Of a DNA stretch of 64,000 bases, positions 1,768 through 50,343 are shown one piece after another. The position numbers and the translations under genes are program-made. Location: positions 1 to 64,000 of the forward strand of contig DXCM01000024.1 of NCBI GenBank assembly GCA_019116025.1, read 5' to 3'. The notes below the pieces were generated by a model. It had not been told where the DNA came from and ran no database searches. It saw nothing but the letters and a program-made list of their open reading frames with translations. Positions within the stretch are counted from its first letter, which is position 1; the number at the start of each line of letters is the position of its first letter. Origin of the DNA: Candidatus Companilactobacillus pullicola (lineage in GTDB: Bacteria; Bacillota; Bacilli; Lactobacillales; Lactobacillaceae).

Positions 1768-1938
1768 GTCCTCCACAAAAATTGGGAATGCTGTTGGAAC
1801 ACTATGGGCGCGATTCGGAGCTAATTATTTTACACTTCGTGCAAAATAATGGATCTTCGAAGTCGGCCTTATTGTAATCGGCAAAGCCGATGACAATAAT
1901 TTCATAGCTGAACGCATTCCCAATTTTTGCTCCGGACT
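1768..1938 (-). repeat. Structured repeat element A (minus orientation)
   Basis: This ~170-base element folds as a branched hairpin. Read on the minus strand, a basal stem (AGTCC with GGAC) encloses GGAG opposite TGGA, then a 15-bp outer stem (CAAAAATTGGGAATGC with its complement). Inside are a small CTATG/CATAG stem and two further hairpins (ATTGT-AATCGGC and an AT-rich ATTATTTT/AAAATAAT stem). The minus-strand core GAAGATCCATTATTTTGC closely matches element B, so A and B are inverted copies about 240 bases apart. No coding sense or transposase is present. The function is unknown. Confidence 0.75.
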
Positions 1939-2178
1939 AAAGAGTGGTTCTATTATTTTATTTAAGGACTGATACTAAGTAGATTTTATAGTTTGAGACT
2001 AATCAGGTTTGTTGTTTTCGGTTAAATAGATAATGCTTAGACGTTTTGAAGAGAGAATAATTAAAAGAGAAAGATGCTTATATCGACTTAACTAGTAGTT
2101 GATATAAACATTTTTTATTTTGGAGATGAAGAATTAAAGTTTTAATTATTTACCAACAAAAAAATCAAAGCAGAATCT

Positions 2179-2351
2179 AGTCTGGAGTAAAAAATCTGTG
2201 GGCCCTCAGTGGCGACATTCTACTTAGCTTGCGGAGCAAGGTTAGTAGAAGACCGGACTTGAAGATCCATAATTTTTTGCGAAGTGAAAAATTATTAGCT
2301 TCAAGCCGTGTCCGCCACGTTCCAGCGGCCCACAGATTTTTTGCGGAAGAC
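2179..2351 (+). repeat. Structured repeat element B (plus orientation)
   Basis: This ~173-base branched hairpin is homologous to the reverse complement of element A. The basal pairing is AGTCT with AGAC, enclosing GGAG opposite CGGA, then a ~16-bp stem (AAAAAATCTGTGGGCC with its complement). Inside are a GTGGCG/CGCCAC stem, a TCTACT/AGTAGA arm with a CTTGC-GGA-GCAAG tip, and a CTTGAAG/CTTCAAG arm tipped by AATTTTT/AAAAATT. Stem sequences differ from A while pairing is kept. It sits between the glmM terminator and the glmS promoter. A short minus-strand open frame here is only a by-product of the hairpin. Confidence 0.75.
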
Positions 2352-2375
2352 GGCAGGTTAAGCAAATTTAAATAA

Positions 2376-2555
2376 CATTGGTCTACATGACATATACCAA
2401 TGTTTACAATCGGTACATACCACCTATACCATTTATAAAAAATATTAAAACTTTCTTGACATAATGATAACTAATTAGTATTCTAGTCATTGTCGCAAGG
2501 TAATAAGTATAGTTCAAATGACCTATACCATTTACAACAAAATAAACTATACCAA
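2376..2555 (+). promoter_or_regulatory. Cluster of TATACCA half-sites around the glmS promoter
   Basis: Repeated half-sites ending TATACCA occur at 2392-2401, 2424-2431, 2522-2530 and 2545-2552. One inverted half, ATTGGTCTA, at 2377-2385 forms a dyad with the first. Two copies are the longer direct repeat ACCTATACCATTTA (2423-2436 and 2521-2534). They flank the promoter at 2456-2484. The half-site resembles TGGTCTATACCA-type operators of GntR/HutC regulators such as NagR (YvoA), which sense amino-sugar phosphates. That reading is inferred from the motif and the downstream gene; no regulator gene lies nearby. Confidence 0.5.
2456..2484 (+). promoter_or_regulatory. glmS promoter
   Basis: A consensus TTGACA (2456-2461) is followed after 17 bases by TATTCT (2479-2484). 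The predicted start near 2491 gives an ~86-base leader, too short for a glmS ribozyme. Confidence 0.8.
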
Positions 2556-2576
2556 TTGAGAAAGGCTATAATTATT

Positions 2577-4388
2577 ATGTGTGGAATTGTCGGAGTAATT
2601 GGAAATAATAATACAACTGATATTTTATTAAATGGATTGGAAAAACTAGAATACCGTGGTTACGATTCAGCCGGTATTTATGTTAATAATCAAAAGGGCA
2701 AAGACTTCTTAGTTAAAGAAGTTGGTAAAATTAGTGAATTAGAAAATGCCGTTACAAGTGATGTTCAAGGCCTAGCCGGGATCGGTCATACTAGATGGGC
2801 AACGCACGGAAAGCCAACTATTGAAAATGCTCATCCTCATTTTTCAGAAGATAACCGTTTCTACTTAGTACATAATGGTGTTATCACAAATTATGATGAG
2901 TTGAAGAAAGAATACTTAGCTGATTTCAAATTTGAAAGTCAAACTGATACTGAAGTTGCCGTACAATTAGTTGATTATTTTGCTAAAAAGGGTATGGACG
3001 GTGAAGCTGCTTTTAGAAAAGCACTCAGTTTGATCGAAGGTTCATATGCTTTTGCTATGATCGATAAAGAAGAACCAGATCGTATCTTCGTTGCTAAAAA
3101 TAAGAGTCCACTTCTCATCGGTTTGGGAGACGGCTTCAACGTTATCTGTTCAGATGCTATGGCTATGCTTGACCAAACTCATAAATTTGTTGAAATTCAT
3201 GATGGTGAAGTTGTTATCTTGAAGAAAGATTCTGTTGAAATTAGCAAGATTGACGGTACTAAGGTACAAAGAGATCCTTATATGGTCAACATTGATGAGA
3301 ATGATATTTCTAAGGGTACTTATGACCACTACATGTTGAAAGAAATTGACGAACAACCAAATGTCATGAGAAAGATTTCTAAAAATTATATCAATGACGA
3401 TGGTTCATTGAATGTTGAACAAGACCTTTTGGATGAAATCAAGAAAGCTGATCGTTTATATATTGTTGCTGCCGGAACTAGTTATCATGCCGGCTTGGTT
3501 GGTCGCAATATTTTCGAAAAGATTGCCGATGTGCCTGTAGATGTTGAATTGGGAAGCGAATTTGGTTACCATATGCCAAAACTTTCTAAGAAACCATTCT
3601 TCATTTTCTTATCACAAAGTGGTGAAACTGCTGACAGTCGTCAAGTGTTGGTTAAAGTTAATGAGATGAAATTACCAAGTTTAACAATGACAAATGTTGC
3701 TAACTCAACACTTTCTAGAGAAGCTACATATACTATGGAATTGTTAGCTGGACCAGAAATTGCCGTTGCCTCAACCAAAGCTTATACAGCACAAATTGCT
3801 GTTGAAGCGGTGTTGGCTAAGGCTTTGGGTGAAGCTAAGAATTTACCAATTGCTAAAGAATTTGATCTTAAAGAACAATTAGCTTTGGCTGCTAACGGAA
3901 TTCAAACTATTGTTGATGAAAAAGATAAGATTAAGGAATTAACAGCTGATTACTTAACAGGTAAATCAGATGCCTTCTATATCGGTAGAGGTGTTGATTA
4001 CGCTCTATCACTAGAAGCAGCTCTTAAACTAAAAGAAATTTCTTATATTCACGCTGAAGGCTTTGCTGCCGGAGAATTGAAGCACGGAACAATTGCTTTG
4101 ATTGAAAAAGATACACCTGTCTTTGCCTATGTGAATGATGGTATTGGTGCAAGTCATACTCGTGGTAACATCCAAGAAGTAGAAGCACGTGGAGCTCATG
4201 TTCTAGTTATTGCTAGTCAAAAATATGCTGAAGCAGGAGATCAAATTGTTATTCCTGAAATTGATGAATTGATTTCCCCAATTATTAGTATTGTTCCTGC
4301 TCAAATGATTGCTTACTACGCAAGTTTGGCACGTGGAAACGATGTCGATAAACCTCGTAACCTTGCAAAAAGTGTCACAGTAGAGTAG
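2577..4388 (+). CDS. glmS: Glutamine--fructose-6-phosphate aminotransferase GlmS
   Basis: GlmS makes glucosamine-6-phosphate from fructose-6-phosphate and glutamine, the first committed step to UDP-GlcNAc. The start was set at the ATG giving MCGIVG because Cys2 becomes the N-terminal catalytic nucleophile after Met removal. A GAGAAAGG site lies upstream. The open frame itself begins 29 codons earlier, but those codons overlap operator repeats. The 603-residue protein has an N-terminal class II amidotransferase domain (to ~240) and two SIS domains, with SQSGET in the first and the conserved C-terminal PRNLAKSVTVE. It is monocistronic and likely regulated by the half-site cluster upstream. Confidence 0.97.
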   Translation: MCGIVGVIGNNNTTDILLNGLEKLEYRGYDSAGIYVNNQKGKDFLVKEVGKISELENAVTSDVQGLAGIGHTRWATHGKPTIENAHPHFSEDNRFYLVHNGVITNYDELKKEYLADFKFESQTDTEVAVQLVDYFAKKGMDGEAAFRKALSLIEGSYAFAMIDKEEPDRIFVAKNKSPLLIGLGDGFNVICSDAMAMLDQTHKFVEIHDGEVVILKKDSVEISKIDGTKVQRDPYMVNIDENDISKGTYDHYMLKEIDEQPNVMRKISKNYINDDGSLNVEQDLLDEIKKADRLYIVAAGTSYHAGLVGRNIFEKIADVPVDVELGSEFGYHMPKLSKKPFFIFLSQSGETADSRQVLVKVNEMKLPSLTMTNVANSTLSREATYTMELLAGPEIAVASTKAYTAQIAVEAVLAKALGEAKNLPIAKEFDLKEQLALAANGIQTIVDEKDKIKELTADYLTGKSDAFYIGRGVDYALSLEAALKLKEISYIHAEGFAAGELKHGTIALIEKDTPVFAYVNDGIGASHTRGNIQEVEARGAHVLVIASQKYAEAGDQIVIPEIDELISPIISIVPAQMIAYYASLARGNDVDKPRNLAKSVTVE

Positions 4389-4413
4389 CCTAAATTTACA
4401 TAATGGATATATA

Positions 4414-4442
4414 ATAGTCTTCGTAATGAAGGCTATTTTTTT
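4414..4442 (+). terminator. Terminator after glmS
   Basis: The stem TAGTCTTC/GAAGGCTA with a GTAAT loop is followed by seven T residues, about 25 bases after the glmS stop. Confidence 0.85.
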
Positions 4443-4470
4443 ATTATAAAAATTATAGATTGGTGGTTTT

Positions 4471-6066
4471 ATGGGAAATAAAAAATTAAATTTGTTCTCA
4501 ACAGTAATGTTTGGGCTAAGTGCGATTATTGGTTCAGGCTGGATGTTTGGATCTAGTCAGGCGGCGCAAATAGCCGGTCCAGCAGCAATTATTGCGTGGA
4601 TTGTGGGAGCAATTTTAGTAGCAATGATTGCAATGGTTTATGTCGAAATTGGGACGATGTTTCCGGAAGAGGGAGCTATGAGTCGATTTACGATGTACAC
4701 TCATGGTTCGTTGTTAGGACATATTTTCTCATGGGCTAATTGGATTTCATTATTAGCAATTTTACCAATTGAAGCAGTGGCCTCAGTTCAGTATATGAGC
4801 ACTTGGCCATGGTCTTGGGCTAATTGGACGCATGGATTTATGAAGGGCGGACAGCTTAGTTTTCAAGGAATTATGATGGCAACAGTGATGCTGTTCATCT
4901 TTACAATTATTAATTATTGGTCAGTCGCTATTATGGCCAAATTTAATAACTTCATTTCAGTTTTAAAAGTAGTCGTACCAATAATCACAATGATTGCCTT
5001 GGTTACGGCACATTTCGATTTTAATAATATGGGTAGTTCATTTAGTGAATTTATGCCTAATGGTACGGCATCAATATTTGTAGCTATTGGTAGTGCCGGA
5101 ATCATTTACTCTTACGTGGCTTTTCAAACGGTCATTAATTTGAGTAATGATATTAAAAAACCGTCTGTTAATATCAGACGAGGAATAATTTTATCGTTAT
5201 TGATCAGTGCTTTGATTTATATCGCATTACAAATTGTCTTTATCGGAGCATTGCCACAGTCAATTGTTAATGGTGGTTGGTCAAAGATCAACTTTAATTC
5301 ACCATTTGCTGATTTGGCTATCTTGTTGAATATTTATTGGTTATCGACATTGGTTTACTTCACAGCCTTTATTTCACCGGTCGGTAGCGGAATTGCTTTT
5401 GCATCTTCAGCAAGCAAATCATTATCATCGATGCCTAAGAATAAGCATTTGCCATTGTTCTTGAGCAATTCGAATAACAAATACAATTCGCCACGGATAG
5501 CTTTAATGGTCGATTTTGTGGTCAGTTTCATTTTGATTTTACTATTTAAGAATTGGTCATTACTATCACGTGTAGTTGCAGCATCAACGTTGATTTCCTT
5601 GCTATCAGGTCCAGTTGTGGCAGGAAGTTTGCGTAAAATGGGTCCGGAATTAAGACGACCAACAAAAATTAAAGGAATGAAAATTCTAGCTCCAGTTGTT
5701 TTTGATTTAATTAGTTTGGCAATTTATTGGGCTATGTTCCCAACGACCGTAGAGGTTATCGTAATCATTATCGTTGGTTTGCCAATCTATTTTGTTTACG
5801 ATTATCGTCGTGGTTTTAAAGAGTTTAAGCAGAAATTATATGCCAGTTTGTGGCTGATAGTTCATCTGTTTGGTTTATCAATTATTTCTTGGATTGGTGG
5901 ATCAGACTTTGGTGGAATGAATTTGATTAAGTATCCAATGGATTTCGTTGTTATATTGATTTTCTCAACTGTTATGTATTATTGGGCAACTCATTCATTG
6001 TATTATTCTGGTTATTTCGATGATGCTAAAGAGATCAATGCAACAGTTAAGTTGGAAAATAATTAG
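4471..6066 (+). CDS. APC-family amino acid permease
   Basis: This 531-residue protein has about 12-14 hydrophobic spans. The N-terminus FGLSAIIGSGWMFGSS matches the TM1 signature of amino acid-polyamine-organocation transporters, including the unwound GSGW substrate-binding stretch. By overall length and the long C-terminal span region it resembles the YveA-type aspartate:proton symporter group, but the substrate cannot be read from sequence. The ATG follows a GGTGG site. The VanZ-like gene begins 3 bases after its stop, so the two are cotranscribed and probably translationally coupled. Confidence 0.88.
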   Translation: MGNKKLNLFSTVMFGLSAIIGSGWMFGSSQAAQIAGPAAIIAWIVGAILVAMIAMVYVEIGTMFPEEGAMSRFTMYTHGSLLGHIFSWANWISLLAILPIEAVASVQYMSTWPWSWANWTHGFMKGGQLSFQGIMMATVMLFIFTIINYWSVAIMAKFNNFISVLKVVVPIITMIALVTAHFDFNNMGSSFSEFMPNGTASIFVAIGSAGIIYSYVAFQTVINLSNDIKKPSVNIRRGIILSLLISALIYIALQIVFIGALPQSIVNGGWSKINFNSPFADLAILLNIYWLSTLVYFTAFISPVGSGIAFASSASKSLSSMPKNKHLPLFLSNSNNKYNSPRIALMVDFVVSFILILLFKNWSLLSRVVAASTLISLLSGPVVAGSLRKMGPELRRPTKIKGMKILAPVVFDLISLAIYWAMFPTTVEVIVIIIVGLPIYFVYDYRRGFKEFKQKLYASLWLIVHLFGLSIISWIGGSDFGGMNLIKYPMDFVVILIFSTVMYYWATHSLYYSGYFDDAKEINATVKLENN

Positions 6067-6069
6067 TCA

Positions 6070-6600
6070 ATGAATAGTTTGAAAACAAAACAAAAATGGT
6101 TCTGGGGAATAGTAGTTTTAATTGAAGCTATTCTTTTCTACAGTTCGTCAATGACCTATAAGGAACAGACTTCAGTGCCTTTTTTAGAAAAATATTTATC
6201 CGGAAGACCTTTTGCTAATGCTTTAAAAGGAATTCATTTTACCTATGGTGGTAAGGTTCAATCGATTGAGAATGATGGCTATTACCATTTTGTCGAGTTC
6301 TTTATACGAAAGGGAGCTCATTTCGGTATTTATTTGGCTCTAGGAGTATTTTTGTGCTTAGCTTTGTATACATATTTTAAAGATAACTGGCTTTTACAAA
6401 CGATTATTCCTTGGTTATCTGCAACGGGATTAGCCGCTTTTGATGAATTTCACCAAGGTTTAACTGGAGGTAGAACTCCTTCAGTAGTGGACGTAATCCT
6501 TGATAGTTCGGGCGCTTTGTTGGGCTCAGTTGTCGTTGTACTGATACTGTATTTTGTTATAAAACATAAGGATAAGAATAAAATTTTTTCAATTAAATAA
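6070..6600 (+). CDS. VanZ-family membrane protein
   Basis: The 176-residue protein has an N-terminal membrane span and three more spans in the second half. It carries the VanZ signatures KGAHFGIYLALG and DEFHQGLTGGRTPSVVDVILD. VanZ proteins are small membrane proteins; the founding member gives low-level teicoplanin resistance, and most family members have no known role. No clear ribosome site precedes the ATG, and the start is 3 bases after the permease stop, which suggests translational coupling. A perfect terminator follows. Confidence 0.9.
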   Translation: MNSLKTKQKWFWGIVVLIEAILFYSSSMTYKEQTSVPFLEKYLSGRPFANALKGIHFTYGGKVQSIENDGYYHFVEFFIRKGAHFGIYLALGVFLCLALYTYFKDNWLLQTIIPWLSATGLAAFDEFHQGLTGGRTPSVVDVILDSSGALLGSVVVVLILYFVIKHKDKNKIFSIK

Positions 6601-6609
6601 GCTCCAGAT

Positions 6610-6646
6610 AATAAGATTATGCGAAAGCATAATCTTATTATTTTTG
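6610..6646 (+). terminator. Terminator after the permease-VanZ operon
   Basis: A perfect 13-bp stem AATAAGATTATGC with a GAAA tetraloop is followed by ATTTTT, just after the VanZ stop. Confidence 0.9.
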
Positions 6647-6698
6647 CCCAAAATGCTATATCATGTGGTTAAAATTTTTAGAAGGAGGTATCGGGCTT

Positions 6699-7628
6699 AT
6701 GAACATGGATGACGATGTGGTAGAGATCGGTGAAACGTCAGTATTGAGTCGTAAAATGGGCCTAGGTACTAACAAAGTTGGGAAGAGTGATATCTACAAA
6801 GACGTTAAAGATGCCGATGGCTTTGGACTTGTCAAAAAAGCTATCGATTCGGGAATGACGACTATTGATACGGCGTATGCATATGGCAAAGGTCGTTCGG
6901 AAGAAATCATTGGTGACGTTATTAAGCATTATGATCGTAGTGACATTGTAATAGCGACCAAGGCTGCTCAAGATCCAGAGCGTGATTATGCTATTAATAA
7001 TTCCCCGGAGTTTTTAAAGAAGTCTGTGGATCAAGCTCTTGAACGATTAAAAGTTGATTATATAGATATTTTTTATATACATTTTCCAGATAAAGATACA
7101 CCTAAGGCTGAAGCTCTCTCAGCTTTGGAAGATATGCGTGAAGCTGATAAGATCAAAGCCATTGGGGTTTCTAACTTTACTTTAGATCAAATCAAAGAAG
7201 CCAATATAGACGGTTTCGTCGATGTTGTAGAAGATAATTACAGTCTGGTTCATCGCAATGCTGAAAAAGAGCTGTTTCCTTATTTACGTGAAAACAATAT
7301 TTCATTCGTACCATACTTTCCTTTGGCTTCTGGTACTTTGACCGGAAAATATCAAGCAAGTGATTATGCCAAAGTTCCACGTTTTTCAAAAGAGGAGTTT
7401 GGACAAATTGTAACGTCACTTGATCCGGTTAAAAAAATTGCCGCTAAGTATGACGCAACTGTCACGCAATTGTTGTTGGCTTGGTACATGATGGATCCAG
7501 ATATTTCAATCGTAATCCCAGGTGCTAGAACTGTTGAGCAAGTGGAACAAAATGCTAAGTCCTGGGATATCCATCTAAGTAAAGAAGATTATCAAGCGAT
7601 TGATACAGCTTTTAGTGATTTTAAATAA
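6699..7628 (+). CDS. Aldo/keto reductase
   Basis: This NAD(P)H-dependent oxidoreductase of the aldo/keto reductase TIM-barrel family has 309 residues. The catalytic tetrad is visible: Asp and Tyr in TIDTAYAYGKG, Lys in VIATKAA, and His in IFYIHFPD. The cofactor end shows SIVIPGARTVEQV. The start was moved 12 codons into the open frame because a near-perfect AGAAGGAGGT ribosome site lies inside the longer version, 9 bases before this ATG. It is followed by a second oxidoreductase 27 bases downstream. The substrate is unknown. Confidence 0.9.
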   Translation: MNMDDDVVEIGETSVLSRKMGLGTNKVGKSDIYKDVKDADGFGLVKKAIDSGMTTIDTAYAYGKGRSEEIIGDVIKHYDRSDIVIATKAAQDPERDYAINNSPEFLKKSVDQALERLKVDYIDIFYIHFPDKDTPKAEALSALEDMREADKIKAIGVSNFTLDQIKEANIDGFVDVVEDNYSLVHRNAEKELFPYLRENNISFVPYFPLASGTLTGKYQASDYAKVPRFSKEEFGQIVTSLDPVKKIAAKYDATVTQLLLAWYMMDPDISIVIPGARTVEQVEQNAKSWDIHLSKEDYQAIDTAFSDFK

Positions 7629-7655
7629 AAAATAAATTTAGAAGAAGTGATCATT

Positions 7656-8255
7656 ATGGCAAAGAAAGTAGTGATTTTAGGTGCAAACGGCTATGTGGGA
7701 GGAGTTTTTGCAAAACAATTCCTCGATAGAGGCGACAGTGTAGTAAGTATTTCCCGCTCAGGACGTCCAGATAAAGATGTCGATTGGTATGACAAAATTG
7801 ATTGGGAAATGGGTGATCCATTGGATAAAGATGCTCCTTGGGAAAAATATTTAGCTGGTGCTGATATTTTAGTTGATACCGTGGGTGAATACATGGAACA
7901 TCTTGATAAAGGTATGACGTATGAGAAGGTCAATTATCAAACAGCTTTAAATATTGCCGATGCCGCTGAAAGACAAAAAGTTCCTATCTTTGTTTTTATT
8001 TCCATCGACGATGATCCTGCATTTCCAGACCGTCGACTCTTTACAACTAAACGGGATGCCGAAGATTATTTGAAACAACGTGATTTTATTTCTATCTTGG
8101 CGCGTCCATCGGCTATGTATCCAGCAGATCAATACAAAAAGGGTGAAGGTCCACATCGTAGTTTGTTAGTTGATGATGTTGCTAGCTCAGTTATTGCCGC
8201 TACTGATACTGTTAAAGAAACGGAAACTCTGAAGGTTGATGATCTTGAAAGATAA
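7656..8255 (+). CDS. NAD(P)-binding Rossmann-fold protein (NmrA/epimerase-like)
   Basis: The 199-residue protein begins with a Rossmann dinucleotide-binding loop, VVILGANGYVGGVFAKQFL, with a Ser-Arg pair after the second strand (SISRSGRP) that suggests NADP. It is an atypical short-chain dehydrogenase or NmrA-type protein, shorter than true epimerases, and lacks an obvious YxxxK catalytic pair. The ATG was preferred over an in-frame GTG three codons earlier because GAAGAAG at 7641-7647 is then well placed. It probably forms a two-gene unit with the aldo/keto reductase. Confidence 0.8.
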   Translation: MAKKVVILGANGYVGGVFAKQFLDRGDSVVSISRSGRPDKDVDWYDKIDWEMGDPLDKDAPWEKYLAGADILVDTVGEYMEHLDKGMTYEKVNYQTALNIADAAERQKVPIFVFISIDDDPAFPDRRLFTTKRDAEDYLKQRDFISILARPSAMYPADQYKKGEGPHRSLLVDDVASSVIAATDTVKETETLKVDDLER

Positions 8256-8266
8256 TTGATTTTTTT

Positions 8267-8298
8267 AACGTGATGCAAATTCCTGCATTGCGTTTTTT
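8267..8298 (+). terminator. Terminator after the oxidoreductase pair
   Basis: An 11-bp stem (AACGTGATGCA / TGCATTGCGTT, two G-T pairs) is followed by a T-run, 11 bases after the stop. Confidence 0.8.
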
Positions 8299-19287: not shown

Positions 19288-19403
19288 TTAAAAAATAGAT
19301 TAAAAATGTTGCCAATAATGCAATGTAAGCCTTTACTTTTTTATTTTTACTGTTATATTAAGGGTGTATAGAAAAGAGTAAATTTGGAATGGAGGTTCAT
19401 GAT

Positions 19404-21080
19404 ATGACAAGAAAAGCCTACATGATTGGTACAGGTGTTGGTAATTTAGCAGCTGGTATTTATTTGATTCGTGATGGGGGATTTAATGGCGATCAAATTA
19501 CTATGATGGGTCTAGAAGACCACGGTGCAAACGATGGTGCCGCAGTTAAGGACTATGAAACAGAATATGGTAACCAAGCTTTATCGAACAGCAAAGGATT
19601 TTTAGCAAAGGGTGGTAGAATGCTCAACGAAGAAACATTCGAAAACCTATGGGATGTATTGCGTTCGGTACCTTCATTGGACCATCCTGGACAAACAGTT
19701 ACAGATGACATTTTGAATTTTGACCACGCTCATCCAACACATGATGTTGGCCGTTTGATCGATGAAAACGGTCCACGTGTAAAACCTAATAAAGATAATT
19801 ACAGACATATGCAATTTGACAACAAGGATCGTTACCTATTGTCTAAATTGATGTTGATGCCTGAAAAAGATGAAGAAAAATTAAATAACATCAGTATTGC
19901 AGAATGGTTTGCAAGCAGTCCACACTTCTTCACAACAAACTTCTGGTACATGTGGCAAACAACATTTGCTTTCAAACGTGCTAGTTCAGCCGTTGAATTA
20001 CGTCGTTACATGAATCGTATGATTCTTGAATTCAGTCGTATCAATACACTGGAAGGTGTTACAAGAAGTCCATATAACCAATTTGAAAGTATCATCTTGC
20101 CAATGCGCAAGTACTTGGAAGATCGTGGCGTAACATTCATCAACAACCGTAAGGTTACCGACCTTGAATTCAAAGACACACCACTTCAAGATGATATTAT
20201 CGTTACTGGACTCAAGTACGAAGAAGTTGATAACGATAACAAAGAAGGACATATCGATATTGCCGAAAACGACCTAGTCTTTGATACTAATGGTTCAATT
20301 ACTGATAGTTCAGCACTTGGCGACTTCAACACACCATTTAAGGAAAATATGGATTATGCACCTAGTGCAGCACTTTGGAAGAAAGCAGCCGAAAAGTTCT
20401 ACTCATTAGGTAATCCTGACAAATTCTTCGGTGATCGTACACAAAGTGAATGGGTCAGCTTCACAGTCACAACAAACAGCCACTTCTTAGTAAATGAAAT
20501 TTCACGTATCACACAACAAGAACCCGGAAATGCTTTGAATACATGGATCAACAGTACGCCATTGTTATCAATCGTTGTACACCATCAACCACACTTCAAG
20601 GCACAAAAGCCAAATGAGTCAACATTCTGGGGTTACTTCATGTATCCAAGAAGAAACGGTGACTACGTTCAAAAGCCTGTAATGGAAATGACAGGTAAAG
20701 AAATGCTAGAAGAATTACTAGGACATCTAGCAGAAGTAGACCCAAGCAAAGACAATATCAAGAATCATACACAAGAAATTATGGATAGTATTGTCAATGT
20801 AATTCCAGTTCACCTACCATATGCAAGTGCAATGTTTAATCAAAGAGCCGTCGGAGATCGTCCAGATGTAGTTCCAAAGGGAAGCAAGAACTTAGCCTTC
20901 ATTAGTCAATTCTGTGAACAACCATTCGATATGGTCTTTACAGAACAATATTCATTCCGTGCAGCACAACGTGCCGTATATACATTGTTGAATATTCCAT
21001 TGTCAGAAATGACACCAATGCATCATTACGAGAAAGATCCTAAAGTAATGGCACGTGCTACTAAGACAATGTTTAGATAG
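19404..21080 (+). CDS. ohyA: Oleate hydratase
   Basis: This FAD-dependent enzyme adds water to the cis-9 double bond of oleic and linoleic acid, giving 10-hydroxy fatty acids; the family was once called myosin-cross-reactive antigen. The 558-residue product begins with the FAD-binding Rossmann motif MIGTGVGNLAAGIYLI. It contains the family stretches NSKGFLAKGGRM, FWYMWQTTFAFKRASSAVELRRY and QFCEQPFDMVFTEQYSFRAAQ. The start was set 5 codons into the open frame because GGAGG lies within the longer version. It is monocistronic, with a structured element immediately after its stop. Confidence 0.95.
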   Translation: MTRKAYMIGTGVGNLAAGIYLIRDGGFNGDQITMMGLEDHGANDGAAVKDYETEYGNQALSNSKGFLAKGGRMLNEETFENLWDVLRSVPSLDHPGQTVTDDILNFDHAHPTHDVGRLIDENGPRVKPNKDNYRHMQFDNKDRYLLSKLMLMPEKDEEKLNNISIAEWFASSPHFFTTNFWYMWQTTFAFKRASSAVELRRYMNRMILEFSRINTLEGVTRSPYNQFESIILPMRKYLEDRGVTFINNRKVTDLEFKDTPLQDDIIVTGLKYEEVDNDNKEGHIDIAENDLVFDTNGSITDSSALGDFNTPFKENMDYAPSAALWKKAAEKFYSLGNPDKFFGDRTQSEWVSFTVTTNSHFLVNEISRITQQEPGNALNTWINSTPLLSIVVHHQPHFKAQKPNESTFWGYFMYPRRNGDYVQKPVMEMTGKEMLEELLGHLAEVDPSKDNIKNHTQEIMDSIVNVIPVHLPYASAMFNQRAVGDRPDVVPKGSKNLAFISQFCEQPFDMVFTEQYSFRAAQRAVYTLLNIPLSEMTPMHHYEKDPKVMARATKTMFR

Positions 21081-21222
21081 AGAGAGGGCGGAGCAAGGGC
21101 GTTTGACCTCTGAGGATTTGCCTAAGTACTGGAATCGCACGCGTACTATGCGTGCAATTTCAGTACTGTAGCAAATCACGGGAGGTTGCCCTTGCGGAGC
21201 CCATTTAGGCAGCATACTTGAG
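21081..21222 (+). repeat. Structured 3'UTR element C
   Basis: The element starts directly after the ohyA stop with AGAGAG. It folds as one long hairpin: GGGC/GCCC, internal loop GGAG opposite CGGA, CAAGGGC/GCCCTTG, GACCTC/GAGGT, GATTTGC/GCAAATC, an AGTACTG/CAGTACT stem and a GCACGC/GCGTGC tip. Element D behind metQ2 has the same layout and shares TCTGAG, ATTTGCCTAAG, CTGTAGCAAA and GCATACTTGAG, while the stems change with compensation. There is no T-run, so it is not a simple terminator. A normal terminator lies ~290 bases on. Confidence 0.75.
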
Positions 21223-21508
21223 AAGAACAGCCAAGAAGAATGGTTTGAGGTCTTGAGGTATGGTTATTTAGAGTTAGAAGAAAAACTATTGAGAATAGAA
21301 AAAATAATTTTATGTGGAACGAGAAATTATTTTAAACAAACCTCAAAAACCTTCACAATACAAAATGTATTCAAAAGTAACTAACCTAAACGAAATTCCC
21401 ATCTAAAAGGGAGGTTGATGCCTATAATCAATCTATATCGGAAACAAATAAAATCTAACATCAAACGACAAAACATCTCATTAAGAAAGATAAAAAGTTT
21501 CACAAGTA
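21223..21508 (+). other. Intergenic stretch without recognised gene
   Basis: I see no ribosome site with a credible frame here. Partly complementary stretches GGTTTGAGG (~21250) and CCTCAAAAACC (~21341) could pair, so this may be a long 3' untranslated region of ohyA running to the terminator at 21509. Confidence 0.4.
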
Positions 21509-43361: not shown

Positions 43362-43383
43362 TAAAAATTGAATATTAATAAAT

Positions 43384-43559: not shown

Positions 43560-44510
43560 ATGAAGGCTATTGTTATACATGAAACTGGTGGACCAGAAGT
43601 TTTAAGTTATGAAGATGTTCCAACACCTGAAGTTAAACCGGGTTGGTCATTGGTTAAAATTAAGGCATTCGGTATAAATCATATCGAATTGCTCACACGT
43701 CAGGGGCTTGTGCCAGATGTTAAATTGCCTAAAATCTTAGGACTCGAAGCTGTCGGAACAATCGCTGAAAGTACTTCCGATGATTTACAAGAAGGACAAA
43801 AAGTAGTGTTAATGAAGACTGAAATGGGTCAAAGTCTCCCTGGATCGTACGCGGAATATACTTTGCTTCCTAATGATCAAATTTATCCAGTAGACACTGA
43901 CTTTGATTGGTCAGCATTGGCCGCAATTCCGGAAACTTATTACACAGCTTATGGATCAATTAAACAACTTCACATTAAGAACGAAGATGAGATTTTAATT
44001 CGTGCAGGTAGTAGTGGTGTTGGTTTAGCAGCAATGCGTTTGATCAAAGCTAAATATCCTGAAAATATAGTGACTGCTTCAGTTAGAAATCTAGATAAAA
44101 AGCAAGAATTATTGGATATGGGATATGATTTAGTTGTGGAAGATAAAGATGGTAAGTTACAAACAGCAAGTCATTTTGACAAAGCTTTAGAGCTAGTTGG
44201 TCCTGCCACAGTTAAGGATACTTTATCAAGAATGTATCCAGAAGGAATCGTTTGTGAAACAGGAATTTTGGGTGGACAAGCAACACTTGAAGACTTTGAA
44301 CCAATTCACGCAATTCCAAATAGTGTTTATTTAACATCCTTTGCTTCGGAAATGGGAAGTAGAGATTTAATTGATGAAATGTTTAATTATATTACTCACT
44401 ATCATGTCGATGCAACGCCAGGAAAAGTTTTCAGTTTTGATCAAGTAAGAGAAGCTCATGAATATATGGAAAAGAATCAAGGAATAGGAAAAGTCGTTAT
44501 ACTTAATTAA
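43560..44510 (+). CDS. Medium-chain dehydrogenase/quinone-reductase-like protein
   Basis: The 316-residue protein of the zinc-independent MDR branch begins MKAIVIHETGGPEVLSYEDVPTPEVKPG and has a GroES-like first half. The NADP-binding motif is AGSSGVGLAAMRLIKAKYP (~150). The zinc ligands of alcohol dehydrogenases are absent, consistent with NADPH:quinone or enoyl reductase-like enzymes. The substrate is unknown. GGAGTGAATC precedes the ATG. It is a single gene. Confidence 0.85.
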   Translation: MKAIVIHETGGPEVLSYEDVPTPEVKPGWSLVKIKAFGINHIELLTRQGLVPDVKLPKILGLEAVGTIAESTSDDLQEGQKVVLMKTEMGQSLPGSYAEYTLLPNDQIYPVDTDFDWSALAAIPETYYTAYGSIKQLHIKNEDEILIRAGSSGVGLAAMRLIKAKYPENIVTASVRNLDKKQELLDMGYDLVVEDKDGKLQTASHFDKALELVGPATVKDTLSRMYPEGIVCETGILGGQATLEDFEPIHAIPNSVYLTSFASEMGSRDLIDEMFNYITHYHVDATPGKVFSFDQVREAHEYMEKNQGIGKVVILN

Positions 44511-44726
44511 TAATTTATTAATGTTTCTAATGTAAAACGATAAATGTAAGGCAATTTAAATATTTTTAATTTTTAAAATTATTGTGTTTTATCGTTATAA
44601 AAGCTGTATCGTTGCACCCACACAAGCCTTGAGATAAAAGGGATTCGATAAATGTCATGTTATAAATGCCACTTGGCATACAATTTAAAAATTAGAAATT
44701 AAATGAAAAAAGTTAAGATTTCATGA
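44511..44726 (+). other. Intergenic region before the metQ T-box
   Basis: AACGATAAA (44535-44543) can pair with TTTATCGTT (44588-44596) across an AT-rich loop, but no T-run follows. Nothing else is recognisable. The methionine-operon promoter begins at 44727. Confidence 0.4.
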
Positions 44727-44755
44727 TTGACATTTCAAAAATTAGATTGTATTAT
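44727..44755 (+). promoter_or_regulatory. Promoter of the methionine uptake operon
   Basis: A consensus TTGACA is followed after 17 bases by TATTAT. Transcription would start near 44762, at the 5' end of the T-box leader. Confidence 0.8.
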
Positions 44756-44761
44756 CTAACC

Positions 44762-45067
44762 AACGATTAACAAAAGACATTTATTAAACAATTTGATCGG
44801 GGGAAGTAATTCAACCTCGTTTGTACAGAAAACCTCTATTTGCTGAGATGAGGGCAACGACTTGAATGAAAATGACCCGTGATTGGTGCGCTGAATCCTT
44901 TCGGATAAAGATGCAATGGTTGGTACCCTTTATAGTACACGCGTATAGAATCTTTGTACGTTGTTAAGGGGATAAGTGTAAATTTATTCCGAATTAGAAT
45001 GGTACCGCGCATAGCCGCTTCTAAATCTGAACATAGTGTTGTTCAGTTTAGAAGTGGCTTTTTTGTT
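44762..45067 (+). promoter_or_regulatory. T-box riboswitch, methionine (leader of metQ1)
   Basis: The leader contains the conserved T-box AATGGTACCGCG (44998-45009) and a following terminator (AGCCGCTTCTAAATCTGAAC with GTTCAGTTTAGAAGTGGCT and a T-run). The distal stem I region is GAAAACCTC…TGCTGAGATGAGG. The specifier loop reads GAAAATGACC, giving ATG at 44872-44874, so uncharged tRNA-Met should promote read-through. The downstream methionine ABC transporter agrees with that specificity. Confidence 0.93.
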
Positions 45068-45116
45068 TATATAGATATTTTTAGTTAGTTAAGAAACAAA
45101 TGAGGTGGGAAAACAA

Positions 45117-45935
45117 ATGAGTAGATTTGGAAAAATAGGTAAGGTTATCCTATTAGCTTTTACAGCATTATTTATTTTCGTATTAGCTGGTTGTGGTAAT
45201 CAAAACAAGGAACAAACAGTTAAGGTAGGAATCAATCCTTCTGACGCTGCGATTTGGAAAGTAGTTAAGAAAAATGTGAAGAGTGAAGGTATCAACTTAA
45301 AGACTGTTGAATTCAACGATTACAATCAACCAAATACAGCCTTGGTACAAGGGGAAGTTGATATCAATGCTTATCAACATACATTCTTCCTAAATTCTTG
45401 GAATAAGGCACATCATACTGATCTAGTATCAATTGGTAAAACTGTTATTCAACCAATGTCTTTATATTCACACAAGATCACAAAGCTTAGTCAATTAAAG
45501 AATGGTGCTAAAGTTGCTATTCCTAACGATGCATCTAATGAAGCACGTGCATTACAATTGCTAGAAGCTAACGGACTTTTGAAACTTGATAGTGGTGTTA
45601 AGTTACCATCAACTAAGAACATCAAAGAAAACAAATTGAATTTGAAATTTACAACTCTTGATGCTGCACAAACAGCTCGTTCATTAGATGATGTTGATGC
45701 CGCAATCGTCAATGGGAACGTTGCTAGTGATGCTAAACTTGATCCATCAAAAGCTGTTGTAACTGAAAAGATTAACAAGAAGTCACAACCTTGGATCAAC
45801 ATTATCGTTACTCAAAAGAAGAACAAAGATAACAAGACTTACAAGAAAGTTGTTAAAGCTTTCCAAACAAAGTCAGTTGCTAAAGAAATCAAGAAGGTTT
45901 ACGGCGAAAGTGCCGTACCAGCTTGGAATAAGTAA
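45117..45935 (+). CDS. metQ: Methionine-binding lipoprotein MetQ1
   Basis: This is the substrate-binding lipoprotein of the MetNIQ uptake system. The 272-residue product has a signal peptide with lipobox LAGC (lipidated Cys) and the NlpA/MetQ signatures VKVGINPSDA, TALVQGEVDINAYQHTFFLN and IPNDASNEARALQLLEANGL. The ATG was preferred over an in-frame GTG four codons earlier, because GAGGTGGG lies upstream of it. It is the first gene under the Met T-box, followed by an M20 peptidase, metN and metI. A second copy, MetQ2, ends the locus. Confidence 0.94.
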   Translation: MSRFGKIGKVILLAFTALFIFVLAGCGNQNKEQTVKVGINPSDAAIWKVVKKNVKSEGINLKTVEFNDYNQPNTALVQGEVDINAYQHTFFLNSWNKAHHTDLVSIGKTVIQPMSLYSHKITKLSQLKNGAKVAIPNDASNEARALQLLEANGLLKLDSGVKLPSTKNIKENKLNLKFTTLDAAQTARSLDDVDAAIVNGNVASDAKLDPSKAVVTEKINKKSQPWINIIVTQKKNKDNKTYKKVVKAFQTKSVAKEIKKVYGESAVPAWNK

Positions 45936-45965
45936 AATGTTTTAAAAATTTGAGGAGGTTTTCAT

Positions 45966-47300
45966 ATGTCAAAATTATCAGATCCATTAATTCAGGAGTC
46001 GATTGAAGATTTAAAGCAATATATCGCACTACCATCCGTTTCAGCAAAGAATCAATCTATTACTGAGACAGCCGAATTCCTTAAAAATTTACTACAAGAC
46101 TTTGGAGCAGATGCAACAGTTTGGGATGAATTTGAATATCCAGTTGTTTTTGCCGAAATCAAACCTAAGAAGCCAAGTGATACCACAATTCTTATTTACA
46201 ATCACTACGACGTTCAACCAGAAGAACCGGTGGAACTGTGGAACTCAGATCCATTTAAACTCAAGATCACTGATGATAAGTTCATCGGTCGTGGAGTTTC
46301 AGATTGTAAAGCTGATTTAATCAGTCGAATTACAGCTTTGAAGATTTATCGTCAAGAACATGGTGATTTACCTTGCAACATCAAATTCTTAGTTGAAGGA
46401 CAAGAAGAGGTTGCTAGTCGTCACCTAGAAGATTATTTGAAGAAATACTCAGACAAGTTGTCTGCTGATTTGATAATTTGGGAATCAGGATACAAGAATG
46501 AAAAGGAACAATTTAATTTCACCGGTGGTAATAAAGGTGTTCTATGTTTTGAATTAGAGGCTGTTTCAGCCAACATCGATCTACATTCATCATTTGCTGC
46601 TGTAGTTGATTCCGCTACTTGGAGATTAGCTCAAGCACTAGATGCTTTGAGAACTCCTGAAGGTGATATTAAGATTCCTGGTTTCTATGATGATGTCGTT
46701 GAACCTTCTCAAAGAGAAATTGATTTAGTTAATAAAGCTACCACACCTGATTTGAAATCTAAATGGGACTTACAAGTACCATTATTGAAGAACAAATCAG
46801 TTAACTACAATTTAACGTTCAATCCTACTATTAATATAGAAGGAATTAGCAGTGGCTGGGAAGGCGAAGGAGTAAAAACTGTTACTCCTAAAGCTGCCAA
46901 GGCTAAATTGGAATTCAGATTAGTACCTAATCAGGATCCACATGATCTATTTGATAAGTTAACTAAATATTTGAACGACCAAGGTTTTAAAGATATTAAA
47001 GTTAAGTATTTATTAGGGGAAAAGGGTTATCGTTGGGATCTAGATAGTCCTATCGTAAATAAATTGATTGGAACTGCTGAAGATTTCTTTGGTGGAGCTG
47101 ATAAAGTTGAAGCCTTACCATCAAGTCCTGGTACTGGTCCAATGTACTTGTTGAATGAATATACTCACGCCTCAATTGTTTCAACAGGTGTAAGTTATTC
47201 AAGGGCCGGCAATCATGCCCCTAATGAAAATATTAGAATTAAGGATTACCTAGACTTCATTGATTTCTTTGATCAATTCTTGGGTAAATTAAGGGAGTAA
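45966..47300 (+). CDS. M20-family metallopeptidase (dipeptidase-like)
   Basis: The 444-residue di-zinc peptidase has the ligand and catalytic motifs NHYDVQPEEP (His, with Asp two residues after), GRGVSDCKAD (bridging Asp), EGQEEVASRH (Glu pair) and a late His in GNHAPNENI. In some M20 members the motif is GASDDKG; here Cys occupies a flanking position. It is embedded between metQ1 and metN under Met T-box control, so release of methionine from imported peptides or N-acyl-methionine is a reasonable guess. GAGGAGG precedes the ATG. Confidence 0.9.
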   Translation: MSKLSDPLIQESIEDLKQYIALPSVSAKNQSITETAEFLKNLLQDFGADATVWDEFEYPVVFAEIKPKKPSDTTILIYNHYDVQPEEPVELWNSDPFKLKITDDKFIGRGVSDCKADLISRITALKIYRQEHGDLPCNIKFLVEGQEEVASRHLEDYLKKYSDKLSADLIIWESGYKNEKEQFNFTGGNKGVLCFELEAVSANIDLHSSFAAVVDSATWRLAQALDALRTPEGDIKIPGFYDDVVEPSQREIDLVNKATTPDLKSKWDLQVPLLKNKSVNYNLTFNPTINIEGISSGWEGEGVKTVTPKAAKAKLEFRLVPNQDPHDLFDKLTKYLNDQGFKDIKVKYLLGEKGYRWDLDSPIVNKLIGTAEDFFGGADKVEALPSSPGTGPMYLLNEYTHASIVSTGVSYSRAGNHAPNENIRIKDYLDFIDFFDQFLGKLRE

Positions 47301-47306
47301 TTATTA

Positions 47307-48365
47307 ATGGCAGAACAAAACGGGATAATTCAGCTAAAAGATATTGACGTTACTTTTCATAATGAAGGAAAAACAATTGAAGCTGTAAAAGACGTTTCCA
47401 TTAACGTTAATAAAGGCGATGTGTATGGTGTCATTGGCTACTCTGGTGCCGGAAAAAGTACTTTGGTTCGTGTAATTAATTTATTACAAAAGCCAACTTC
47501 TGGAACAGTTATCGTTAATGATCAAAACTTAACACAATTGAGTGCTAAAGATTTACGTAAGGCACGTCGTAATATTGGAATGATCTTTCAACACTTTAAT
47601 TTGATGAATTCATTAACTGTTTATGGAAATGTTGATTTTCCATTACGTGATTCAGGACTAAGCAAAGCTGAACGTAAACAAAAAATCGATAAATTATTGA
47701 ATATAGTTGGTCTATCTGACCGTGCTAAGAACTATCCATCACAATTATCAGGTGGTCAAAAACAACGTGTGGCGATTGCTCGTGCTTTGGCTAATGACCC
47801 TGAAATCTTAATTTCAGATGAAGCTACTAGTGCTTTGGATCCTAAAACTACCACAGAAATTCTGGATCTACTAGGACGTTTGAATGAAGAACTTGGTATT
47901 ACGATCGTGATTATCACTCACGAAATGGATGCTATCAAACAAGTATGTAACCGTGTTGCAGTTATGGAGAATGGTCAATTGATTGAAGAAGGCAGTTTGT
48001 TGACAATCTTCGGTAATCCTAAGCAACAACTTACAAAGGATTTTGTTAATACATCTACTCATATCGGTTCAGTACTTGATGAAATTAGAGATAGTGGCAT
48101 TGTCGATAAGCTTTCAGGTCGTTTGATCGAATTGAATTATATTGGCGATTCCACTAACGAACCAATTGTTGTTGAACTTTATAAACGTTTCCAAGTTGAG
48201 GCTAATATTCTTTTCAGTAATATTGAAAGATTGCAGAGCACAACTGTTGGTATTATGTTATTCGCTTTGACGGGTGACGATGATAAAGTTGAACAAGCTA
48301 TTCAATATTTAAATAGTTTGAATGTTAATGTTAAAGAAATATCTTTGAAGAAAGAGGGCGAATAA
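47307..48365 (+). CDS. metN: Methionine ABC transporter ATP-binding protein MetN
   Basis: The 352-residue ATPase of the methionine importer has Walker [10 protein letters not shown] (~residue 44), the signature [15 protein letters not shown], Walker [13 protein letters not shown] and the H-loop ITHEM. It also carries a C-terminal NIL/ACT-like domain (~270-350) that gives methionine feedback inhibition in this family. It starts 6 bases after the M20 gene with AAGGGAG upstream, and metI follows 3 bases after its stop. Confidence 0.96.
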
Positions 48366-48368
48366 TTC

Positions 48369-49058
48369 ATGGCAGATTTAGTAAATAAGTTTCTTCCTAA
48401 CGTTGTAGCAAATTGGGAAGGTGATAATGGTTTTGTCGTAGCCATTTGGCAAACACTTTATATGACATTTGTCAGTGCATTATTTGCTGGAATTATCGGA
48501 ATTATCTTGGGAATTCTGTTAGTTATTACAGCCGATGATGGAATTACTCCACATAAAGTTTTGTACACATTCTTGGACAAGTTGGTTAACCTGTTCAGAT
48601 CAATTCCATTTATCATCTTGCTAGCCGTTATCGGACCATTTACAAGATTGATCGTTGGACAAACAATTGGACCTACTGGTGCATTAGTACCGTTAGTTCT
48701 TGGAACAGCTCCATTCTTTGCCAGACAAGTTCAATTGGCTCTAGTTGAAGTTGATCATGGGGTGATCGAAGCCGCTGAAGCAATCGGCCTTTCACCAATT
48801 AAAATTATTTTTAGAGTTTACTTACGTGAAGGTTTACCAGAATTGATTCGTTCAGGAACTCTAACAATTATCAGTTTGATTGGTTTAACTGCCATGGCCG
48901 GTGCCGTTGGTGGTGGTGGTCTTGGTAACATGGCCATTTCCGTTGGTTATCAACGATTCGAAAATGATGTAACAATTGTATCTATGTTATTTATCTTAGT
49001 TTTAGTGTTTATTATTCAAGGACTTGGCGATTTTGCCGTCCGTAAACTTGAACATTAG
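48369..49058 (+). CDS. metI: Methionine ABC transporter permease MetI
   Basis: The 229-residue permease has five spans and the EAA loop EVDHGVIEAAEAIGLSPIKI that contacts MetN. It also carries the family stretches NLFRSIPFIILLAVIGP and TAMAGAVGGGGLGNMAISVGYQRF. GAGGGCG precedes the ATG. It is followed by a second Met T-box and metQ2 rather than an ordinary terminator. Confidence 0.96.
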   Translation: MADLVNKFLPNVVANWEGDNGFVVAIWQTLYMTFVSALFAGIIGIILGILLVITADDGITPHKVLYTFLDKLVNLFRSIPFIILLAVIGPFTRLIVGQTIGPTGALVPLVLGTAPFFARQVQLALVEVDHGVIEAAEAIGLSPIKIIFRVYLREGLPELIRSGTLTIISLIGLTAMAGAVGGGGLGNMAISVGYQRFENDVTIVSMLFILVLVFIIQGLGDFAVRKLEH

Positions 49059-49062
49059 ATAA

Positions 49063-49328
49063 CAAGTTGACCGGAAAAGTAACTTATTAGATTTTGTACA
49101 GAAAGCCTCAGGTGCTGAGATGAGGACAAAACAGTAAGTGAAAATGATCCGTGATTGGTATCCCTGAATTTTTTAAGGGATGATGGTCGGTACCCATTAT
49201 CGTACACACATGCAATGCATGTTATTAAGGAAAGCAGATGCGAGTTTGCTTTTAAAATAGAATGGTACCGCGCAAAAGGCGCTTCTATCTTGGACGAGTG
49301 ATCGTCCTAGTTAGGAGCGCCTTTTTGT
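49063..49328 (+). promoter_or_regulatory. T-box riboswitch, methionine (leader of metQ2)
   Basis: A second complete T-box lies directly after metI: stem I (ACTTATTAGATTTTGT pairs with ACAAAACAGTAAGT), specifier loop GAAAATGATCC with ATG at 49144-49146, T-box AATGGTACCGCG (49261-49272), and terminator AAAAGGCGCTTCTA with TTAGGAGCGCCTTTTT. The block TGAAAATGAYCCGTGATTGG is shared with the first T-box, so the two leaders are related copies. No clear promoter precedes it, so it probably gates read-through from metI. Confidence 0.92.
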
Positions 49329-49362
49329 ATATAGGGTTTTAAATTAGAGGAGGATTTTCATC

Positions 49363-50205
49363 ATGAAAAAAAATAAAATTAAAGCTATCTTTTTGTTAGC
49401 TATTACCACATTCAGTTTGTTCTTGCTAGCGGGTTGTGGAAGCAGTTCTTCATCAGCCAGTTCAGCAAAAGAGAAGACCGTTAAAATAGGTATTACAGGT
49501 TCTGATGATGAAGTATTAAAGGCCGTTGCTAAAAAAGTTAAAAAAGAAGGAATCAACCTTAAAATTGTTGAATTCTCAGACTATAGTCAACCAAATACAG
49601 CTTTGGACCAAGGAGAAATTGATCTAAATGCTTTCCAAACAATTATTTTCCAAAATGATTGGAACAAGAAACATAAGACAAACATCGTATCAATCGGTTC
49701 AACCGTAATCGCACCAATGGCTCTATATTCAAAGAAGATCAAGAAAGTTAGTCAAATCAAGAACGGCGACAAGATTGCCGTTGCCAATGATGCCACAAAT
49801 GAAGCCCGTGGATTAGCATTACTAGAAAGCGCCGGCTTGATCAAGTTGGACAACGCCAAAGTTCCTGGTTTGAAAGATATTACCGAAAATAAATTGAACC
49901 TAAAGATCACACCATTAGACGCCGCACAAACAGCTAAATCAATGGATGACGTCACAGCTTCAGTAGTTAATAGTGGAGTTGCCAACGATTCAAAACTAGA
50001 TCCTAAGACAGCGGTTTATAGAGAAAAAATCACAGCAAAATCAAAACCATATGTAAATATCATTTCAGCTAATAAGAAAGATAAAGATAACCCTACATAC
50101 AAGAAGATCGTTAAAGCATATCAATCAGAAGAAATCGCTAAAGTTATTAAAAAAGAATTCCACGGATATGAACAACCAGCTTGGAATTATAAAGTATTAA
50201 ATTAG
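49363..50205 (+). CDS. metQ: Methionine-binding lipoprotein MetQ2
   Basis: This 280-residue paralogue of MetQ1 has signal peptide and lipobox LLAGCGS, followed by a Ser-rich linker and VKIGITGSDDEVLKAVAKKVKKEG, then TALDQGEIDLNAFQTIIFQND. It probably delivers methionine, its sulfoxide or the D-isomer to the same MetNI core. GGAGGATTT precedes the ATG. Having its own T-box allows expression to be set apart from the permease genes. A structured element begins immediately after the stop. Confidence 0.94.
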   Translation: MKKNKIKAIFLLAITTFSLFLLAGCGSSSSSASSAKEKTVKIGITGSDDEVLKAVAKKVKKEGINLKIVEFSDYSQPNTALDQGEIDLNAFQTIIFQNDWNKKHKTNIVSIGSTVIAPMALYSKKIKKVSQIKNGDKIAVANDATNEARGLALLESAGLIKLDNAKVPGLKDITENKLNLKITPLDAAQTAKSMDDVTASVVNSGVANDSKLDPKTAVYREKITAKSKPYVNIISANKKDKDNPTYKKIVKAYQSEEIAKVIKKEFHGYEQPAWNYKVLN

Positions 50206-50343
50206 AGAGAGAGTGGAGAATGACGGTTAGATTCTGAGCATTTGCCTAAGACCTGGAATTATCCGCCGAACCTGCGGATGATTCCAGGTCTGTAGCAAAG
50301 CACAGGAATCTGTCATTCGGAACCCGTTTGCCGCATACTTGAG
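50206..50343 (+). repeat. Structured 3'UTR element D
   Basis: The element begins directly after the metQ2 stop with AGAGAGAG. The basal GAGT pairs with ACCC (one mismatch), GGAG faces CGGA, then AATGAC/GTCATT, AGATTC/GAATCT, TTTGC/GCAAA, AGACCTGGAAT/ATTCCAGGTCT and ATCCGC/GCGGAT form a long hairpin. The same unpaired blocks as in element C are kept (TCTGAG, ATTTGCCTAAG, CTGTAGCAAA, GCATACTTGAG), while most stem bases differ with compensation. No T-run follows; a simple terminator sits at 50464. Confidence 0.75.

Follow-up and report, generated by a model that had tools for sequence, protein, structure and literature searches.

Two families of dispersed hairpins resembling REP (repetitive extragenic palindromic) sequences, with one basal design in common (a short covarying stem and a long stem, with a purine GNA/GNA loop between them), occur in the first 64,000 nucleotides of contig DXCM01000024.1 of Candidatus Companilactobacillus pullicola (GCA_019116025.1; this whole stretch is referred to as the window). 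Family A is a 170-nt hairpin with a three-way junction and family B is a rod of ~125 nt. Family B, which abuts stop codons in the sense orientation, has the appearance of an RNA element of message ends that is not yet catalogued and, judged from its sequences, is most likely a REP-like mobile hairpin of the 3′ untranslated region (UTR) that would act on translation termination or mRNA decay. Family A is most likely a DNA-level repeat that resembles REPINs (inverted REP doublets), either acting or merely spreading.

The four elements of the window were read directly in the sequence at the places given by the original prediction, a note made from the letters alone, each with a basal stem and facing GGA/GGA. 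The first two are the left and right halves of a divergent pair of family A hairpins, with three-way junctions. The left half (1768–1938, minus strand; 153.5 bits to R2, the covariance model of family A) reads AGTCC-GGA-G ... TGGA-GGAC, with the basal stem AGTCC/GGAC and the loop GGA/GGA, and the right half (2179–2351, plus strand; 153.2 bits to R2) reads AGTCT-GGA-G ... CGGA-AGAC, with the basal stem AGTCT/AGAC and the same loop; an AT-rich spacer (1939–2178) separates them. The first B copy (21081–21206, plus strand; 140.5 bits to R1, the covariance model of family B) consists of AGAGA and the basal stem, a rod hairpin, and a 3′ CATTT, and reads GGGC (21086–21089)-GGA-G ... CGGA (21195–21198)-GCCC (21199–21202), with the loop GGA/GGA. 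The second B copy (50206–50329, plus strand; matched by the B profile and part of the alignment behind R1) is a rod hairpin with a 3′ CGTTT and reads GAGT (50211–50214)-GGA-G ... CGGA (50318–50321)-ACCC (50322–50325), so that the short-stem pairs are those proposed originally, including the single mismatch in the fourth element (A.C, GAGT/ACCC). The ranges first quoted for the B copies begin correctly but extend too far, as the structure stops near 21206 and 50329 and the remainder is tail; the tail 3′ of the first copy (21207–21222, plus strand) contains GCATACTT and in part recurs in the sequence that flanks family A on its outer side (GGCATACTT). Each element folds as had been described, with z-scores against shuffled sequences of −8.99 (1768–1938), −9.27 (2179–2351), −9.05 (first B copy), and −6.82 (second B copy), and for each of the four none of 200 shuffles was as stable as the native fold.

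The number of copies, originally put at four, proved far larger, with more than 100 in the window genome, and the motif is no product of chance. Among the matches listed, there were 88 distinct A places and 33 distinct B places; BLAST with the 2179 element found at least 40 places at E < 1e-50 (itself included) and with the 21081 element 44 matches, some of which are antisense matches of the same palindromes. Covariance models matched 88 B and 54 A in the window genome, numbers that were at or near the cap and that, like all model counts below, hold among the candidates scored (for B, 89 per genome in the genus, 13 in the order under strict filters, and 9 in the phylum) and that may include antisense palindrome matches. 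In genome G000, an A copy lies at or within ~600 bases of the end of several contigs (C89, C64, C16, C65, C76, and C73); the repeats have probably broken the draft assembly there, and the copy numbers are then underestimates.

The copies gathered, each counted once, came to 142 for B (130 full length) and 94 for A (86 full length). Covariation was assessed with an imitation of R-scape that combined a FastTree phylogeny, Fitch reconstruction, and a G-test with average product correction; its 60 null alignments preserved the substitutions on every branch. For family B, 25 pairs were significant (E ≤ 0.05), 18 of them inside the RNAalifold consensus structure; three of the other seven could pair beside it (35–96, 18–109, and 42–88) and four were non-pairs. 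For family A, all 14 significant pairs fell inside the structure, including the basal pair 5–170 (G-C, 38; C-G, 28; T-A, 14). The prediction of a loop bounded by covarying stems thus held in both families (18 B and 14 A pairs within the structures), as did that of two subfamilies of interior, which correspond to A and B. The basal stem of B occurs as GAGC/GCTC, GAGT/ACTC, GGGC/GCCC, and GCGT/ACGC. The loop itself is conserved in a looser form than had been proposed, with GNA/GNA and a free middle base in 122 of 130 full B copies; among the 86 full A copies, 55 have GNA/GNA (GGA/GGA in 45) and 26 are fully complementary, such that the loop is absent. GGA/GGA as a fixed motif was therefore rejected, as the middle base of B is free and many A loops are closed by pairing. 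Conserved ends were AGAG...CGTTT in B and AGTC...GAC in A, and an uninterrupted helix of at least 20 bp was present in 7 of 130 B copies compared to 40 of 86 A copies. The 3′ tails of both families are of few types, with GCATACTT following many A copies and both B copies of the window, and ATAGAACCA occurring before many A copies and within a common B tail.

The strongest feature of family B, overlooked by the original prediction along with the divergent pairing of A, is that it abuts stop codons. Within the window, the first copy adjoins the TAG (21078–21080) of an oleate hydratase/MCRA family gene (19389–21080, plus strand) and the second the TAG (50203–50205) of an NlpA/MetQ-type lipoprotein gene (49363–50205, plus strand). 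Across the copies gathered, placement was determined for 138 (142 minus four with truncated 5′ ends), with a copy considered at a stop if it started ≤12 nt from the stop codon that closes an open run of ≥60 codons on the same strand. By this definition 94 of 138 B copies were at a stop, at offsets of −4 to +4 in 91 of the 94, with another 30 in tandem behind another B and four at 13–60 nt from a stop. The same thresholds gave 9 of 138 on the antisense side and 3.9% for random positions in the same loci, and under a different set of thresholds, used earlier, the figures were 80 of 121 in sense, 3 of 121 in antisense, and 1.9% at random. When the best-scoring locus in each of 30 genomes was considered (some genomes overlapping the first set), 20 were at a stop and five in tandem. 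The basal stem begins 1–9 nt past the stop in most copies, and in 39 of the 94 the stop codon is itself part of B, within its first four aligned nucleotides, often as ATAGAGAG. Genes abutted by B end in TAG in 49 of 80 cases, compared to 61 of 239 other open reading frames (p = 1.4e-8).

Several loci show particular arrangements. The B copies at L323, L326, and L032 follow directly after T-box-like/terminator sequences (GGTACCGCG or GCGGTACCACC, then a T-run), not a stop. At two places in G000 (C31:9428–9818 and C5:4878–5266), B copies face each other a few hundred bases apart, which, as expected, would fit the ends of two convergent genes. In four species (L315, L316, L317, and L321), the best B copy abuts the stop of a gene whose coding sequence ends in the same very acidic C terminus. 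These genes are probably a single orthologue and, as a guess, rpoE, which hints at long retention of B at some sites.

The strand that folds was assessed using only pairs common to forward- and reverse-fitted structures in a set thinned at 85% identity. Family B had 66 G-U and 24 A-C cells (binomial p = 1.1e-5, with cells that are not fully independent and copies that are related), and family A had 14 and 13 (binomial p = 1.0), no strand bias. With G-U about three times as frequent as A-C in B, the sense-strand RNA appears to be what folds, and selection on B appears to act on that RNA. The suggestion of a recognised RNA feature accordingly fits B, which lies in the 3′ UTR on the sense strand, and has no support in A. 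An apparent strand bias in A (112 G-U, 43 A-C) proved artefactual and was discarded: the structure behind it had been fitted to a single strand, and the reverse-fitted structure gave the opposite. A single RNA family for all four elements was also rejected, as A and B differ in strand bias, arrangement, and position.

These observations bear on a purely selfish explanation, in which hairpin DNA is placed by some transposition system close to the ends of genes, the least harmful location, the covariation reflects the enzyme's need for a single-stranded DNA hairpin, and there is no host function. Such an origin would accommodate the inverted A pairs, a copy number that is high and very variable between species, and the patchy presence at orthologous sites, with unit replacement or partial deletion, described below. 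However, a DNA hairpin explains neither why B is in the sense orientation (94 copies, compared to 9 antisense, of 138) nor why G-U exceeds A-C on the mRNA strand, and insertion anywhere in a 3′ UTR would be equally harmless, yet nearly all offsets (91 of 94) fall between −4 and +4. Overall, we consider this explanation possible but doubtful.

The 3′ junctions of the oleate hydratase gene, metQ, and glmM were read in up to 30 relatives each (for metQ, among the junctions listed). For all three genes, some species have B at or within ~10 nt of the stop and in others the stop is followed by the usual terminator, with some of the B copies partial or decayed. At glmM, B starts right at the stop in some other species of the genus, while the window species has a terminator and the A pair. 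A filled (G016) and an empty (G011) glmM site have near-identical flanks, with B entering 1–4 nt past the TAG, the terminator kept downstream, and no target duplication evident. The celB site on six Lactiplantibacillus plantarum plasmids (L098 and L398–L402) holds, within nearly identical flanks, two intact B units of the same type and four recombinant ones, which indicates that B units turn over by recombination; a leftover CGTTT at one of these sites resembles what a deleted tandem unit would leave behind. In one celB-site unit the TAG is lost and the annotated celB is 9 nt longer, and in another the CTA/GTA loop is closed.

The same junctions speak to two further explanations. As a stable hairpin located after stop codons, B could be an unusual transcription terminator or attenuator, but there is no T-run behind the rod and ordinary terminators occur downstream, for example at metQ, glmM, and celB, making this very improbable; the specific case of an intrinsic terminator was ruled out by the missing T-run and the separate downstream terminators at the sites read. 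Behind the second B copy of the window, a terminator-like palindrome with a T-run was read in the sequence (50463–50497, plus strand), though it was not listed by a terminator scan, and in G004, which lacks B at this locus, a very similar palindrome is located close behind the stop codon. Alternatively, B could move as RNA, with a transcribed 3′ end reverse-transcribed into gene ends and host function unnecessary, which would agree with the sense orientation, the position at gene 3′ ends, and selection on the RNA strand. The insertion points, however, were read without a visible poly-A or target duplication, and no reverse transcriptase was noticed by eye among the 14 largest clusters of neighbouring genes, so that movement as RNA seems quite unlikely.

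Within the genus, R1 gave matches in 35 of 36 genomes, from 1 to 89 per genome, with the highest counts at or near the cap. Within the order, 26 of 246 genomes were matched (counting the window's own), and these belong to 17 of 64 genera and to seven families; in the phylum sample, no match was found in 347 genomes beyond the window's own. The search of genomes with a covariance model that had been proposed as a check thus extended the family well beyond the window. One of the B-carrying families is probably the Enterococcaceae and another probably the Aerococcaceae, based on BLAST of copies to named plasmids, and R1 also matches stretches of an Enterococcus faecium plasmid and an Aerococcus tenax plasmid. 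A stretch of a L. plantarum plasmid (L396), similar by BLAST to an enterococcal B copy, gave no R1 match. An alignment of distant relatives (35 matches at 25 loci, 24 of these outside the genus), fitted to the model and thereby favouring structure, had 93.8% of cells paired, with both sides changed in 38 of 40 pairs and a covariation score of 0.81, compared to 0.19 when shuffled and ≤0.13 with partners slid. A sequence-pattern scan of genome contigs identified B by profile in 50 of 93 loci among the matches listed, all of them from Companilactobacillus or one uncultured Lactobacillus metagenome-assembled genome, with the other 43 lacking B; none of 11 viral loci had B by profile.

Alongside the position, orientation, covariation, strand bias, and spread of B, its presence or absence at sites, and its tandem turnover, all of which were observed, a mechanism can be proposed from the sequences. 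The footprint of a terminating ribosome reaches past the stop codon, enough to cover the base of B, and E. coli REPs near stop codons affect ribosome release or rescue and block 3′-to-5′ exonucleases; Liang and others are said to have found in 2015 that E. coli REPs within 15 nt of a stop reduce expression via stalling and trans-translation. By this proposal, B would be co-transcribed with the upstream gene, ahead of its terminator, and a terminating ribosome would cover the basal stem and GNA loop, with the base refolding only once the ribosome leaves. The refolded rod could then affect ribosome release, rescue, or recycling and block 3′-to-5′ exonucleases, while its interrupted helix may spare it from RNase III, a possibility that fits the scarcity of long uninterrupted helices in B compared to A. 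On balance we lean towards B being an RNA rod that, from the 3′ end, tunes the output of its gene, and towards A being an intergenic, divergently paired form at the DNA level. A more far-reaching version, in which B is a new class of Lactobacillales RNA element at translation termination, a large rod whose internal loops are conserved and which, at the stops of many unrelated genes, is recognised as RNA by a common partner and spread by a mobiliser, and A is a DNA-level branch on the same base, is advanced only tentatively; candidate partners of B RNA would be the terminating ribosome, a release or rescue factor, or a nuclease.

Several observations weigh against a role for B at the stop codon. 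Ten of 138 copies are away from any recognised stop, and five of the 30 best loci (one per genome) are located elsewhere than at a stop or in tandem. At the order level, 14 of 33 copies (32 outside the genus, with two repeats dropped) are ≤12 nt from a stop, and six of those 14 stops end open runs of <90 codons. B is scarce in some species, with 1 to 7 R1 matches in six of 36 genomes and none in one, suggesting that a host does not need many. The four recombinant units at the celB site lack part of the 3′ arm, and the two of them that were folded did so weakly, with z-scores of −2.8 and −2.7, compared to −6.4 and −8.7 for the two intact units, so that B at this site does not strictly require an intact rod. 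Further, no transposase was linked to either family in the neighbour-cluster and PF01797 searches. If B does act at the stop, it would constitute an uncatalogued 3′-UTR control element on dozens of genes in many Companilactobacillus species, carried also by a few genes in some Enterococcaceae, Aerococcaceae, and other lactic acid bacteria, and a natural test system for how structure behind a stop codon influences termination, rescue, and mRNA decay in Gram-positives. Starting from a single basal plan, these dispersed hairpins appear to have diverged into an RNA-level and a DNA-level form.

Family A follows different rules of arrangement. R2 gave matches in 34 of the 36 genomes of the genus and, of 19 B-positive genomes from other genera, in three. 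Among the matches listed, neighbouring A copies ≤1 kb apart were divergent ("− +") in 24 of 24 cases, with gaps of 72 to 757 nt. The genes flanking A at 33 loci in the window's own genome were convergent (n = 10), tandem (n = 17), or divergent (n = 6), and A is therefore independent of gene direction; no convincing promoter signal was found upstream of A. An RNA role for A is unsupported, given the lack of strand bias, the occurrence in every gene arrangement, and the 26 of 86 loops that are perfectly paired. In the window, the 5′ neighbour of the A pair is glmM (phosphoglucomutase/phosphomannomutase; 331–1683, plus strand), with the pair located downstream of its intrinsic terminator (1695–1737, plus strand). 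The outer flanks of the pair are inverted, and no clean target duplication was seen. Over the 36 genomes, the capped copy numbers of A showed no correlation with those of B (Spearman 0.06, p = 0.75), which makes a mobiliser common to both families less likely. Six genomes had ≥50 B and ≤12 A matches (G007, G009, G016, G018, G021, and G044) and five had ≤7 B and ≥40 A matches (G003, G012, G023, G041, and G049), two groups that may mark separate histories of A and B expansion.

A Y1 transposase (PF01797) was present in 18 of 36 genus genomes, and the one match in the window genome has an internal stop. B-rich genomes without a PF01797 match include G002, G006, G009, G016, and G021. A resident mobiliser of the Y1 type, or RAYT (REP-associated tyrosine transposase), was ruled out on the grounds that many B-rich genomes have no match or a broken one. 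No transposase was seen by eye among the 14 largest clusters of neighbouring genes, which seemed to be orthologues or chance frames.

Both families share with REP sequences and their mosaics (bacterial interspersed mosaic elements, BIMEs), which carry GTAG or CGTC tags in enterobacteria and pseudomonads, the character of dispersed extragenic hairpins in many copies, often near gene ends, and of mosaics in tandem or inverted arrays. REPs are 20–40 bp long, while B is ~125 nt and A ~170 nt with several conserved internal loops, and neither the GTAG/CGTC end tag nor the short length is found in A or B (125–173 nt). B further differs from REPs in its fixed sense orientation at the stop, and no REP-type Y1 transposase tracks it. 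The inverted hairpin pairs with a variable spacer liken family A, and A only, to REPINs, though its hairpins exceed theirs several-fold in length, the pairs seen were all in the divergent order, and no RAYT was found. According to the accessible part of PMC3733652, REP termini often supply a TAG stop codon to flanking open reading frames; the same part names EFAR and also the miniature inverted-repeat transposable elements (MITEs) RUP, ERIC, and Bcr1.

EFAR of E. faecalis may be a relative of B. In an account by Venditti from 2007, EFAR repeats reportedly are mostly 170-bp palindromes that are variably assembled, have stem-loops close to genes as their insertion sites, and adopt an L shape with two stems, a shape that differs from the rod of B. 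Relatives of B matched by its model occur in the Enterococcaceae and on the E. faecium plasmid. MITEs such as RUP, ERIC, and Bcr1 are short, non-coding, dispersed, and able to fold, as are A and B, but B has covariation on the RNA strand, and no terminal repeat with target duplication was established for it.

Rfam (release 15) matched only the transfer-messenger RNA (tmRNA) and a T-box in the window above gathering thresholds. Permissive Rfam scans of 1600–2600, 21000–21400, and 50130–50530 gave only matches far below threshold, mostly of microRNA models on the hairpin, and the 16 loci with distant B copies gave no Rfam match. A literature search, with most subscription journals outside it, found no description of these repeats, and Lactobacillus is mentioned once, as L. 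johnsonii, in the accessible part of PMC2267715.

The T-box leader (49058–49289) is located upstream of the metQ-type gene whose stop adjoins the second B copy. No glmS ribozyme was found by Rfam in the window. Upstream of glmS (2378–2570), there are several GGT..TATACC-type motifs (for example, TTGGTCTA...TATACCAAT and CTATACCATTT), also found in relatives, which we take to resemble operators of GntR/NagR-type regulators.

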